A stretch of DNA of 64,000 nucleotides from NCBI RefSeq assembly GCF_025195095.1, contig NZ_JANAVZ010000003.1, forward strand, positions 1 through 64,000, written 5' to 3'. The stretch is from Paracoccus maritimus (GTDB taxonomy: Bacteria > Pseudomonadota > Alphaproteobacteria > Rhodobacterales > Rhodobacteraceae). The translations under genes and the position numbers were made by a program. The notes under the pieces were generated by a model. The model did not search any database, had not been told where the DNA came from, and saw nothing but the letters and a program-made list of their open reading frames with translations. Below, piece after piece: positions 57,541-61,630 of the stretch (positions are counted from its first letter, which is position 1; the number at the start of each line of letters is the position of its first letter).

Positions 57541-57786
57541 TCAGCCTCCTTTCGGCGCATATTCCAGAATGCCCTGCACCGCCTGTGTCAGGATCACCGC
57601 GACGACGCCGTAGACGGTCATCCACAATCGCCTCTCCAGCCCTTCGATCAGCGCCTCGATCCGCTCCAGCCGCTTCTCGACGGTGCCGAACTGCAGCGCC
57701 ATGATCCGCTCCTGCGCCTCGAACCGCTGATCGTGCCAGCCGAAGGCATCCTTGACGAAACGAGATCCCTCCATCGCCTCACCCAT
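57541..57786 (-). CDS. GTA head formation protein, rcc01685-like (gp3.5)
   Basis: An 81-residue protein between portal and protease. A helical, charged first part (DQRFEAQERIMALQFGTVEKRLERIEALIEGLERR) is followed by one hydrophobic helix (LWMTVYGVVAVILTQAVQGIL). This matches the small protein at the same site in RcGTA that is needed for heads. The start may be 57786 or 57774. It overlaps the portal stop by eight bases. Confidence 0.8.
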   Translation of the reverse strand: MGEAMEGSRFVKDAFGWHDQRFEAQERIMALQFGTVEKRLERIEALIEGLERRLWMTVYGVVAVILTQAVQGILEYAPKGG

Positions 57787-58963
57787 CGGCCAGCGGCGGC
57801 AGCCCCAGCAGCGCCCGTTTCTCGGCATCGGTCAGGAAACCGGCCTCGCTGATGCGCTTCCACTGCTGATCGCGTTCATCCGACAAGGCCGGGATCCGGT
57901 CGGGATCGGGGCGCAGATCGATCTCGGTGCCAAGATGCTCGGACAGCCACCAGGCGACCGAGGCAGCCACCCGCGTCGCCAACGGCAGCACGGTCAACCG
58001 ATAGAAGGCCCGGTGCGCCTCGGCATAATTGGCATAGGTCGCATCGCCGGGGATCCCCAGCAGCATCGGCGGCACGCCGAACGCCAAGGCGATCTCGCGC
58101 GATGCTGCCATCTTCGTCTGATGGAATTCCATGTCGCTGGGGCTGAACCCCATGGGCTTCCAGTCCAGTCCGCCCTCCAGCAGCATCGGCCTGCCCGCAT
58201 TCCGCGCGCCCTGGTGGTTCATCTCGATCTCGCCCACCAGCCGGTCATACTGTTCGGGGCTCAGCACGCCCTGCCCATCCGCACCCTTGTAGACGATCGC
58301 ACCGCTGGGTCGCGCCGCGTTGTCCAGCAACGCCTTGGACCAGGCCGAGGCGCTGTTGTGGACGTCCAACGCCACCGCTGCCGCCTGCATCGGGGACAGA
58401 CCGTAATGGTCGTCCTGCGGATGAAAGCTTTTCACATGACAGATCGGATCGGGGCTGCCCGTCATGTCAAAACGGTGCTTGCGGCCGCCGACCGCATACT
58501 CGAAGGCGACCGGCCAGCCATCCTCGCCCGGCACGATGCTCATCCGGTCTGAACGCAGGACATGCAACTCTTCGGGCAGCCCTGCCACGGACAGTCCGAC
58601 CGCCTCGACATAACCGTTTCCCGACAGCAGCATCTGCCCGAATAACGCCTCGAACAGCTCGGCGCGTCCCTGCCCCGGATTGGGTCTGCGCAGCAGGTCG
58701 ATGACCGGATGGGTGTCATAGCGCCGCTCGCGATCCTGGCACACCAGGGGCACCGCAGCCGCGGCCTCGGCAATCAGCTTGACGCAGCGAAAACCCACGG
58801 GATTTCCCACGAACCCGCCCCGCGTCAGCGACCCGGTGTCGCGCGCCGACCAGACTGGCCGCCCCGAACCGGTCGCGAACGCCACAACCCGGCCCGTCGC
58901 GCTGGCCTTCCTCTCCTGCACGGGAGCGATCTTTTCCTCCCGCGAAAATAAACGAAACGCCAT
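57779..58963 (-). CDS. GTA portal protein (gp3-like)
   Basis: A 394-residue HK97-type portal. FVGNPVGFRCVKLIAEAAAAVPL, HPVIDLLRRPNPGQGRAELFEALFGQMLLSGNGYVE in blocks, SPMQAAAVALDVHNSASAW, NAARPSGAI, FSPSDMEFHQTKMAASREIALAFGVPPMLLGI in blocks, and TVLPLATRVAASVAWWLSEHL are typical. It forms the DNA entry ring. The ATG at 58963 follows GGAGGCGAGC. A terminator-like hairpin lies just upstream. Confidence 0.94.
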   Translation of the reverse strand: MAFRLFSREEKIAPVQERKASATGRVVAFATGSGRPVWSARDTGSLTRGGFVGNPVGFRCVKLIAEAAAAVPLVCQDRERRYDTHPVIDLLRRPNPGQGRAELFEALFGQMLLSGNGYVEAVGLSVAGLPEELHVLRSDRMSIVPGEDGWPVAFEYAVGGRKHRFDMTGSPDPICHVKSFHPQDDHYGLSPMQAAAVALDVHNSASAWSKALLDNAARPSGAIVYKGADGQGVLSPEQYDRLVGEIEMNHQGARNAGRPMLLEGGLDWKPMGFSPSDMEFHQTKMAASREIALAFGVPPMLLGIPGDATYANYAEAHRAFYRLTVLPLATRVAASVAWWLSEHLGTEIDLRPDPDRIPALSDERDQQWKRISEAGFLTDAEKRALLGLPPLADG

Positions 58964-58987
58964 GCTCGCCTCCATGTCCCGGCCATG

Positions 58988-59014
58988 AAAAAGGGCCGAC
59001 CCGCAGGCCAGCCC
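58988..59014 (-). terminator. Terminator-like hairpin between GTA gp2 and gp3
   Basis: On the minus strand GGGCUGGCC pairs with GGUCGGCCC (nine pairs, two of them G-U) over the loop UGCG, followed directly by five U residues at 58992-58988. This is a normal intrinsic-terminator layout. It lies 57 bases after the gp2 stop and 25 bases before the portal start, inside what should be a single transcript. It may be an attenuator, a partial terminator or a processing site. Confidence 0.65.
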
Positions 59015-59070
59015 CTTCTTCTTTGCTGAAATTTCCTGGGGGTCCGGGGGTGGAACCCCCGGCACCGTCG

Positions 59071-60417
59071 TCACAAGCGCCGCATCTGAGGCCGCCGCCA
59101 TCCCGCGGCCGGTTCGATCATCAGCTCATGGATGGCCCAAACCATCGCATCCAACCGATCAGGCGACCCTCGTCCTTCGAACCCCCGAACCGTCATCTGG
59201 CACATCTGGTCCTCCAGCGCCCCAAGACTGCCGCTCCGCACATGCCGGACGCGACCCTGCTCGTACAACGCCGCGACAGGCTCGGCGCGCAGCCCCTTGC
59301 CGCGACCGGCCCGCAGCGCCTTGAAGGGCACCAGAGGGTCGATCTGCCGGATCACGCTCTCAACCAGATCACCGCCCTGATTGACCTCGGCCACCAGTTT
59401 CTCGGCCCCATGCCGGTCCATGGCGGCAATCGCCGCACGCGCCCAGTCCGTCGGCCCGCCCCTGATCGTCGCATCTTCCAGCACAAAGGCGCGCCAGTCG
59501 CGCGGCTCGCCATCGGCCAGAACGCCAGCGACCACGATCCCGCATTCGTCGCTGGCCTTGCTTGCCGTGACCGCCGGATCGACCGCGACCACAACGCGGC
59601 TCAGTTTCGGCGCGTGATCCACCCGCGCGCCCTCCAGCATCTGGGTCGTCCACAGCGCGCCTTCCACATCGTCCAGCAGAACCCCGTCCAGTTCCTGCCG
59701 TCCCAGTCTCGTTCCGCCGTAACGCGCCTCGACCTCGGCCAGGAAACTTTCGGCCAGATAGGCCCGGTTGGCGTCGGTCGGCGCGTGGGTCGTCACGGTG
59801 CTGGCATTGCCAAGTATGCGCTTCAGCACGCCGACATTGCGCGGAGTCGTCGTGACGACCTGCTGCGGATGCCGCCCCAGCCGCAGCGCGAACTGAAGCA
59901 TGTCCCAGCTGTCCTCCGCCTTCTTCCACTTGGCCAACTCATCGACCCAGGCAGCGTCGAATTGCGGCCCGCGCAGCGCTTCGGGTTCATGCGCAGAGTA
60001 GACCGTCGCAGTCGCACCGTTGGCCCAGACCAGCCGGCGTCGCCCGGCCTCCCAGACCGGCCGGCGATCCGGAGGAGAGCAGGCAAGAATGCCGCTCTCG
60101 CCCATCACCATCACCTCACGCGCCTGATCGAAGGTCTCTCCGACCAACGCGACGCGATGGCACTTGCCGGGTGCGGCGGCGGTCGGCCCCTCGACCATCC
60201 GCCGCACCCACTCCGAGCCTGCGCGGGTCTTGCCCGCACCACGCCCGCCCATGATGACCCAGCTTTTCCAATCGCCTTCCGGCGGCAACTGGTGCGGCAG
60301 GGCCCAGAACTCGAACAGCCAAGGCAACGCCATCAGCGCGTTCTCGGACAGGCCACCCAGAAACGCGTCAACTTCCTCCGGCGCGGCGGAGGCAAGCCAG
60401 GCGGCGCCCGATCTCAT
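59071..60417 (-). CDS. GTA large terminase subunit (gp2-like)
   Basis: A 448-residue packaging motor. The ATPase has Walker A VIMGGRGAGKTRAGSEW (residues 57-64 GGRGAGKT) and Walker B followed by Glu in FDAAWVDELAKW. The nuclease domain has VAVDPAVTASKASDECGIVV, LVAEVNQGGDLV and DRLDAMVWAIHEL, with the acidic metal ligands. In GTAs it packages random host DNA. The ATG at 60417 overlaps gp1 by 50 bases; a TTG at 60486 is less likely. Confidence 0.93.
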   Translation of the reverse strand: MRSGAAWLASAAPEEVDAFLGGLSENALMALPWLFEFWALPHQLPPEGDWKSWVIMGGRGAGKTRAGSEWVRRMVEGPTAAAPGKCHRVALVGETFDQAREVMVMGESGILACSPPDRRPVWEAGRRRLVWANGATATVYSAHEPEALRGPQFDAAWVDELAKWKKAEDSWDMLQFALRLGRHPQQVVTTTPRNVGVLKRILGNASTVTTHAPTDANRAYLAESFLAEVEARYGGTRLGRQELDGVLLDDVEGALWTTQMLEGARVDHAPKLSRVVVAVDPAVTASKASDECGIVVAGVLADGEPRDWRAFVLEDATIRGGPTDWARAAIAAMDRHGAEKLVAEVNQGGDLVESVIRQIDPLVPFKALRAGRGKGLRAEPVAALYEQGRVRHVRSGSLGALEDQMCQMTVRGFEGRGSPDRLDAMVWAIHELMIEPAAGWRRPQMRRL

Positions 60418-60787
60418 CTCTTGCCGCGTCAAGATCGAGGCTGCCTCCTCCGACCCCGCCGGCGATATCCTTGCGAAGTTTGTCAACCCTGTCCCTTTCC
60501 GTCATCATCATGTGGATGGCTTCGCGGACACCCCGCGCCACCTGCGTGGCCTTCTTCAACTCTGCCGGATCGACAGAAGCCGAACTTCCCGCCGCCAGGG
60601 CATCCTGATACGCTTCCAGGTCCTTGACGTAAGAGAAGAATAGCCCATCCGCGACGGTGATCGCCTCTTCCGGATCATATCTTCGCCGCGCTTCCCCGAC
60701 CTGGTCCGCAGGCTTGTCGGTGACGTGCGACGTGGCCACAAACGGCCCTTCGGGATCACCGACCCCGCCCCATTCCATATCGTTCAT
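60368..60787 (-). CDS. GTA small terminase subunit (gp1-like)
   Basis: A 139-residue protein at the head of the cluster. It is helical: ADGLFFSYVKDLEAYQDALAAG, LKKATQVARGVREAIHMMMTERDRV in blocks, and DLDAARDEIGRRLACLRRAG at the end. This is the pattern of GTA gp1, shown in RcGTA to be a small terminase without specific DNA binding. The ATG at 60787 was chosen; 60826 is an upstream in-frame start inside the leader hairpin region. Confidence 0.85.
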   Translation of the reverse strand: MNDMEWGGVGDPEGPFVATSHVTDKPADQVGEARRRYDPEEAITVADGLFFSYVKDLEAYQDALAAGSSASVDPAELKKATQVARGVREAIHMMMTERDRVDKLRKDIAGGVGGGSLDLDAARDEIGRRLACLRRAGGS

Positions 60788-60826
60788 GCAAACTGTCCCG
60801 CCTCGTGTCCTGTCCGCACGAGCCAA

Positions 60827-60876
60827 GAAATGGAAAAGCGGCCCAAGGGGTCACCCCCCGGCCGCTTGCCCATTTC
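60827..60876 (-). repeat. 50-base inverted repeat in the GTA leader
   Basis: GAAATGGAAAAGCGGCC (60827-60843) and GGCCGCTTGCCCATTTC (60860-60876) pair at 15 of 17 positions. Within the loop GGGG and CCCC pair again. On the transcribed strand the inner GC stem is followed by TTTTCC, so it could work as a terminator or attenuator. It lies 40 bases before the gp1 start and just after the candidate promoter. Confidence 0.7.
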
Positions 60877-60891
60877 TCCCAGCATGTATAA

Positions 60892-60920
60892 TTTCTACCC
60901 TAGGGCGTTCGGTTAGTCAA
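60892..60920 (-). promoter_or_regulatory. Candidate GTA promoter
   Basis: On the minus strand TTGACT (60920-60915), 17 bases, then TAGAAA (60897-60892) resemble -35 and -10 elements. The surrounding 60890-60980 is markedly AT-rich compared with the GC-rich genes. In RcGTA the transcription of this cluster depends on the activator GafA, whose site I cannot assign here. Confidence 0.4.
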
Positions 60921-61092: not shown

Positions 61093-61530
61093 TCAGCCCT
61101 TCTTTTTGGGATTTCCCTTCGCGCGCGCTTCGGTCGCTGCCGCGATGGCGGTGCTGGCTTCATCCTGCATCTTCTGCGCGAAAGCCACCATCTGCGCGGC
61201 ATAGGCCTCGGCCCAATCCGGGAAATGGCCGCTCTTCAGGGCCTGCTCTCGCATCTCCTCGCCCTTTTCACGCATCTTCTGAAACTGCTCTTCCCAAGCG
61301 GATTGCATGGTCTGCCACTGGGTGCGCACATTCTCGTTCGCTTCCTCGAAATAGCCGCGCATCTGTGCGTTCAACTCGTCCTGCCGTTGCAAGGCGGTCT
61401 CTTGCCACTTCCGGGCACCAGCCATCATCTCGTCATTACGAGCGCTCATGTCGTCCTGCCATTCGGCGGCCCGCTGTTCGAACGTTCGGGCGTTCTCGGC
61501 GAGGGTCGAAAACATGTCGGACAGTTTCAT
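61093..61530 (-). CDS. Phasin-like helical protein
   Basis: A 145-residue all-helical protein rich in Glu, Gln, Arg and Met. It begins MKLSDMFSTLAENARTFEQR and has long amphipathic helices (ARKWQETALQRQDELNAQMRG, WQTMQSAWEEQFQKMREKGEE). It then ends in WAEAYAAQMVAFAQKMQDEAS, ATEARAKG, like phasins that coat polyhydroxyalkanoate granules. No PHA gene is adjacent, so the role is uncertain. The ATG at 61530 follows AGGAGGATGCGTG. It has its own terminators on both sides. Confidence 0.7.
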   Translation of the reverse strand: MKLSDMFSTLAENARTFEQRAAEWQDDMSARNDEMMAGARKWQETALQRQDELNAQMRGYFEEANENVRTQWQTMQSAWEEQFQKMREKGEEMREQALKSGHFPDWAEAYAAQMVAFAQKMQDEASTAIAAATEARAKGNPKKKG

Positions 61531-61581
61531 CACGCATCCTCCTTATATCAGAGGGTGCGGGCCGGCGCAGCCGACGCCATG

Positions 61582-61630
61582 AAAAAAGCCCGCCCCATCA
61601 CAACGCAGCCTGCGGCGTGGGGCGGGCTTT
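61582..61630 (-). terminator. Intrinsic terminator after mltG
   Basis: AAAGCCCGCCCCA (61585-61597) pairs perfectly with TGGGGCGGGCTTT (61618-61630), 13 bp. On the minus strand the stem is followed by a run of T (61587-61582). It begins 23 bases after the mltG stop and closes the fabF-mltG operon. Confidence 0.92.

Follow-up and report, generated by a model that had tools for sequence, protein, structure and literature searches.

Gene order and hairpins of the Paracoccus maritimus GTA cluster

The window analysed here, a stretch of 64,000 nucleotides from Paracoccus maritimus, encodes a set of GTA genes on its minus strand. The identity of the cluster is indicated by matches to terminase, portal, prohead protease and capsid proteins, and further matches were found to the GTA megatron, the baseplate hub and an Rcc01695-type tail protein. 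Its first gene (60368..60787, minus strand) encodes 139 amino acids, had no Pfam or NCBIfam match, and is TerS-like by position. It is followed by the open reading frame of the terminase large subunit (59071..60486, minus strand; Terminase_6N and Terminase_6C), whose real start possibly lies further in, and by the gene for an HK97-type portal protein (57779..58963, minus strand; PF04860, TIGR01537), with its ATG at 58963-58961. The terminase open reading frame and the portal gene are separated by a gap of 107 nt (58964-59070).

Within this gap lies a U-tailed hairpin (58988..59019, minus strand), which by its form is a predicted intrinsic (Rho-independent) terminator. On the minus strand it reads GGGCUGGCC-UGCG-GGUCGGCCC (59014-58993), with UGCG as the loop, and its stem of nine pairs, two of them G-U, is lengthened by five A-U/G-U pairs. 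The stem is directly followed by UUUUU at 58992-58988, and then by 24 nt to the portal ATG. The hairpin thus has a G-C-rich stem within the range of about 5–14 pairs, a short loop, and a U-run immediately 3' of the stem, as intrinsic terminators do. Folded in isolation (59022-58985), it reached -23.9 kcal/mol (z -3.9) and none of 200 dinucleotide shuffles was as good, confirming the nine-pair stem with five U residues that an initial annotation of this DNA had placed before the portal start. The entire 107-nt gap folds less remarkably (z -1.76, with 12 of 200 shuffles as good). A generic terminator scan of the window listed neither this hairpin nor the leader hairpin described below; the gap hairpin was probably passed over because the scan pairs A-U into the stem, leaving no free T-tail. 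At gathering score, Rfam 15 yielded two tRNAs in the whole window and no match to either hairpin.

A second hairpin in the gap, CCGGGGGUUCCACCCCCGG (59044..59062, minus strand), lies upstream of the U-tailed one, has no U-run, and is variable among relatives. Between the two is an element of the form AGGAAATTT..AAGAAG (59015..59037, minus strand), kin of a motif that is repeated in some Paracoccus genomes. We considered and rejected the upstream hairpin together with AGGATATTT..AAGAAG as the conserved core of the gap, since many gaps lack it and Paracoccus genomes carry a close motif at other sites as well. The related motif CCCCNGAGGATATTT..AANAAGA behind a G/C hairpin was counted 0 to 13 times per genome in nine genomes and 0 times in reversed controls. 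Copies lie at 59015-59062 of the window and elsewhere in three genomes (G036, G039, G047); the motif is found in the terminase-portal gap of many Paracoccus, and in the opposite orientation in Rhodobacter. We take it to be a small repeated element.

Upstream of the TerS-like gene we recognised a putative GTA promoter (60892..60920, minus strand; spacing 17), with boxes assigned by inspection: a -35 box TTGACT (60920-60915), a spacer element CGAACG (60911-60906) and a -10 box TAGAAA (60897-60892). A conserved early transcribed stretch, CATGCTGGGAGAAATGGGC (60868..60886, minus strand), leads into the leader hairpin (60834..60867, minus strand), a predicted promoter-proximal terminator composed of a hairpin at 60867-60836 and a T-run at 60837-60834. 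The leader hairpin to which the initial annotation had referred is therefore real. Between this hairpin and the TerS start, a further leader hairpin of the form CTCGTG-CGGACAGGA-CACGAG occupies 60802-60822 on the minus strand, and pairs resembling it, CTCGTG..CATGAG, can be seen by eye in many leaders of the genus, of Rhodobacter and of the family. A role as an RNA element in TerS translation or in antitermination is conceivable. Reading of the sequence revealed yet another hairpin at 61560-61620, with a T-run-like tail on either strand, after the gene at 61093-61533.

Conservation of the two hairpins among relatives

A terminase match was found in 96 of 101 Paracoccus genomes. From the 95 genomes other than that of the window we took 80 clusters, leaving out 15 genomes that offered fragments or contig ends or were of low rank. 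One cluster (L058) had no portal, so that the 80 Paracoccus gap loci comprise 79 clusters with both terminase and portal, plus the window. The loci L032 and L213 are almost identical to the window. Using RNAfold anchored on T-runs, with thresholds of -12 kcal/mol or lower and at least 3 T, we found a T-tailed gap hairpin in 76 of the 80 loci, and in 66 the hairpin adjoins TTTT. Random windows of the same clusters gave 333 hits in 1600 with at least 3 T, and 50 in 1600 with TTTT. The four loci without a call at this threshold were L065 and L107, with no hairpin, and L090 and L103, with weak ones only. A strict gapless terminator call succeeded in 72 of 80 loci; in the eight failures (L038, L044, L059, L060, L061, L063, L065 and L069) the stem is visible by eye and the U-run is short or broken.

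The position and composition of the hairpin are conserved as well. In 68 of the 76 Paracoccus hairpins, 22–31 nt separate the beginning of the T-run from the assigned portal start, and the remaining distances include loci whose assigned start codon probably sits too far in; 66 of the 76 have a GGAG 10 or 11 nt upstream of the portal start. After the last G-C pair, a mean of 4.7 of 6 nucleotides are T, versus 17% T in the loci, and the stem is preceded by an A-rich stretch (mean 2.7 A of 6). Among 73 distinct gap hairpins, GC or CG occupies the outermost position and three to six pair types occur at each of the next eight, stem bases having changed on both sides across relatives. Because the stem pairs were taken from predicted folds and are paired by construction, the evidence resides in the variety of pair types, and the counts carry no correction for relatedness.

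To locate U-tailed hairpins along the cluster we divided it into 250-bp bins and scored hairpins of -15 kcal/mol or lower with TTTT. The gap bin was positive in 58 of 80 Paracoccus loci and two leader bins in 50 and 38 of 80, the leader bins possibly also reaching into the preceding gene's end. Among the other bins within the cluster the highest count was 13 of 79 loci, and one bin upstream of the cluster was positive in 14 of 80. A differently scored scan (score 28) gave 52 of 80 for the gap bin and at most 8 of 80 for any other downstream bin. Comparably conserved U-tailed hairpin sites elsewhere in the cluster are absent.

The initial annotation had named absence of the stem from close relatives as a refutation of its reading, and the comparison of relatives did not refute it. 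In Rhodobacter, 17 of 18 genomes had a match. A gap hairpin with TTTT was called by script in all 17 loci, one of them (L308) doubtful, and a leader hairpin was seen by eye in all 17. The genus was recognised as Rhodobacter by the gap sequences of two of its loci, that of L306 being the same as in R. aestuarii (L291) and that of L308 the same as in R. maris (L288). In L308 and L288 the called hairpin is not the obvious one, as its TTTT is part of a loop; the hairpin ending in CCTTGTTT is the likely one. Among named loci with both genes, which are mostly Paracoccus and overlap the main set, 64 of 79 carry the gap hairpin with TTTT.

Further from the genus the gap hairpin becomes scarce. Of 133 genomes of the family with a match we took 60 loci, one per genus; three lacked a portal match, and in the remaining 57 a gap hairpin was present with TTTT in 13 and with at least 3 T in 23. 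In a terminase tree of 74 rows, Paracoccus, Rhodobacter and their neighbours form a supported clade (96/91) in which 20 of 21 rows have the hairpin, versus some such hairpin in 9 of the 53 rows outside it, several of these unlike that of the window. We therefore rejected family-wide conservation of the gap hairpin (12 of 60 by the strict call, 13 of 57 with TTTT, clade-limited on the terminase tree); most other genera of the family lack it, though promoter and leader are common to their clusters. In eight genera (G169, G203, G239, G178, G142, G243, G236 and G191) the terminase match is confined to roughly the first 185 residues of an open reading frame of about 830–880 amino acids, and the gene looks like one carrying an insertion such as an intein. 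Outside the family, loci were taken from 40 of 66 genomes of the class, 23 of them with a portal match; a TTTT hairpin followed the terminase in 5 of the 40 loci, mostly weak or distant from the portal. The leaders of these loci were covered by a scan.

The promoter and leader hairpin, by contrast with the gap hairpin, extend across the family. Among the genus loci listed, the region upstream of TerS contains TTGACT, CGAACG, TAGAA-like boxes, a CATGCTGGGAGAAATGGGC-like sequence and a hairpin with T-run. The promoter scored at least 16 at 80 of 81 loci in the genus and at 45 of 60 in the family; background sequence also reached 16 at best, so a few of the 45 family promoters are doubtful. A leader hairpin of -15 kcal/mol or lower adjoining a T-run was present in all 81 genus loci and in 44 of the 45 family loci with a recognised promoter (with TTTT, in 78 of 81 and 41 of 45), the sole exception being L117, whose promoter is a false anchor. 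Control windows gave 21 of 609 (5 with TTTT), and shuffles 1 of 225 (none with TTTT). Family loci without a recognised promoter had a hairpin of -10 kcal/mol or lower in 5 of 15. The T-run lies 50–65 nt after the -10 motif (median 55). A bulge is common in the 3' arm (57 of 81 hairpins in the genus, 34 of 44 in the family) and rare in the 5' arm (1 of 81 in the genus, none in the family). A bulge-free hairpin finder, whose yield of leader hairpins was only 56 of 80 in the genus and 11 of 45 in the family, was replaced by T-run-anchored RNAfold.

The CGAACG between the -35 and -10 boxes is conserved, and its sequence differs from the Caulobacter ZBE palindrome. Without mismatches, the promoter signature occurs once in each of three genomes, at the GTA; with two mismatches, it is no commoner than in the reversed control. 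The CATGCTGGGAGAAATGGGC stretch varies little within the family, and exact or near-exact copies occur once per tested genome, at the GTA. It could be a pause or loading signal.

A GafA-like factor and the proposed function of the hairpins

The genome encodes one protein with DUF6456, the GafZ-type domain, which is 379 amino acids long and scored 196.9 bits against a cut-off of 26.3. By inspection it has the layout of GafA, with DUF6456 at the C-terminus and a stretch resembling a helix-turn-helix close to the N-terminus. A DUF6456 protein was found in 101 of 101 Paracoccus genomes, including five (G017, G066, G067, G074 and G081) without a terminase match, one of them only 71% complete. The regulator may thus outlast the GTA or have other targets. 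GafA is reported to activate the promoter of RcGTA, and its C-terminal domain to bind a promoter fragment carrying the -10, the -35 and the start site (PMC9638019); the same domain is described as homologous to the Caulobacter antiterminator (PMC11150451).

Processive antitermination is, by analogy with Caulobacter, the best reading of the two hairpins. We consider it probable, at roughly two chances in three, that the conserved gap hairpin is an intrinsic terminator which RNA polymerase passes only once modified by GafA. GafA would bind the GTA promoter via its GafZ-like C-terminal domain and load onto the polymerase, making it resistant, and the modified polymerase would read through the leader hairpin first and the gap hairpin second. 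The hairpins would stop any polymerase that had started without GafA or entered from outside. Ribosomes should be unable to carry polymerase through the leader hairpin, since it lies ahead of the first start codon. The purpose of such an arrangement may be that of a lock against stray transcription, so that non-producer cells make neither capsid nor later products; since GTA producers die, a hard off-state matters. Several observations weigh against this reading: the Paracoccus loci in which the hairpin calls fail, the rarity of the gap hairpin in the rest of the family, the repeat structure of the Caulobacter terminator, the divergent central region of GafA, a CGAACG box unlike the ZBE sequence, and DUF6456 proteins in genomes lacking the GTA. 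The initial annotation had suggested antitermination from two barriers in a single GTA transcript, and this part fits, both hairpins being conserved and a GafA-like gene being present. Its alternative, a separation of packaging genes from capsid genes, found little support: a separate capsid-gene promoter is unlikely, as the U-run and the portal ATG are only 24 nt apart, ribosome-binding site included, and the gap contains no promoter-like match. The negative promoter scan is weak evidence, because the scan also misses the GTA promoter.

Other functions can be postulated for the hairpins. The gap hairpin is placed exactly between the packaging and the structural genes, and might be a plain attenuator that halts a constant fraction of polymerases unaided, setting the ratio of terminase to capsid message; read-through in the Caulobacter reporter was indeed partial, reduced about 8-fold even with GafZ (PMC11150451). 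We regard this as unlikely, because an attenuator would lower capsid relative to terminase, opposite to the presumable need of a particle with many capsid proteins, and because the leader hairpin, preceding the whole operon, cannot set a terminase:capsid ratio. Intercistronic hairpins have roles in RNA processing and stability in the puf operon of Rhodobacter, and the gap hairpin, with its strongly conserved stem located right after the stop codon and before the ribosome-binding site, might likewise shield the 3' end of the terminase message or mark a cleavage site. However, such a hairpin does not need a U-run, and the U-run is kept (4.7 of 6 T) along with the stem; this, and a leader hairpin of the same form near the 5' end, makes a pure stability role quite improbable.

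It is also conceivable, with lower probability still, that the hairpins insulate the cluster without antitermination, blocking read-through from neighbours or antisense transcription while a strong GafA-activated promoter leaks through. The A-rich stretch before the stem could allow action on both strands, and the reported activation of the RcGTA promoter would be in keeping with this; but the leader hairpin, sited after the GTA promoter, would act on the wanted transcript, and the homology of the GafA C-terminal domain to an antiterminator also speaks against it.

Extending the antitermination reading to the family, we tentatively favour, by a little over even odds, a lambda-Q-like organisation of Rhodobacteraceae GTAs. 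A family-wide bulged leader terminator would stop unmodified polymerase, GafA at CGAACG would make polymerase terminator-proof, and the second terminator of the Paracoccus–Rhodobacter clade would form a double lock before the capsid genes, with GafA acting as both activator and antiterminator.

Comparison with known systems

The initial annotation was mistaken in regarding such an arrangement as not described for GTAs. Antitermination is already known from Caulobacter, where terGTA lies immediately downstream of the terminase gene and is bypassed by GafZ (Tran and Le 2024, PMC11150451), and is cited for Bartonella (Korotaev, Niggli and Dehio, cited in PMC13236601). Three points are new: that the structure is a simple hairpin, that this hairpin is conserved in the clade to which the classic Rhodobacter GTA belongs, and that a promoter-proximal hairpin is present family-wide. 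In the open-access literature searched we found no report of a short U-tailed hairpin between terminase and portal or of a Rhodobacteraceae-wide promoter-proximal hairpin. The GTA of Bartonella is of an unrelated type, and the likeness to it consists in antitermination in another GTA.

The closest parallel is with Caulobacter. Like terGTA, the gap hairpin lies directly after the terminase and before the portal, and both systems have a DUF6456-type factor and a promoter element conserved between -35 and -10. GafZ is described as binding the GTA promoter between these boxes and associating with polymerase, NusA, NusE and NusG, and rrnB T1 can substitute for terGTA (PMC11150451). However, terGTA is described there as three 150-bp GC-rich direct repeats with imperfect inverted repeats, compared to one short U-tailed hairpin in a 107-nt gap in Paracoccus, which additionally has a promoter-proximal hairpin beyond the Caulobacter system as that paper presents it. 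In place of GafY and GafZ there is one fused GafA, differing in the central omega-binding region (PMC11150451).

The cluster and its activator are homologous to those of RcGTA in Rhodobacter capsulatus (Sherlock and Fogg 2022, PMC9638019). GafA of RcGTA is reported to bind 75–125 bases upstream of the TerS start, and the CGAACG of the window lies 119–124 upstream of 60787. PMC9638019 treats activation only, and "terminator" occurs 0 times in its text; a search of a phage collection for an RcGTA record returned distant portals only. Tran and Le could merely suggest that R. capsulatus GafA might have an unrecognised antitermination activity (PMC11150451). With two conserved hairpins at exact positions, which the genus of the classic GTA shares, antitermination by GafA becomes directly testable.

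In the lambda Q system, the factor is bound between -35 and -10, a terminator lies close behind the promoter, and more terminators follow within the operon. GafZ resembles Q proteins in neither sequence nor structure (PMC11150451), and the likeness is one of arrangement: as in the lambda Q late operons, which the same paper names, the GTA leader places a predicted terminator close behind the promoter, its T-run 50–65 nt after the -10 motif.
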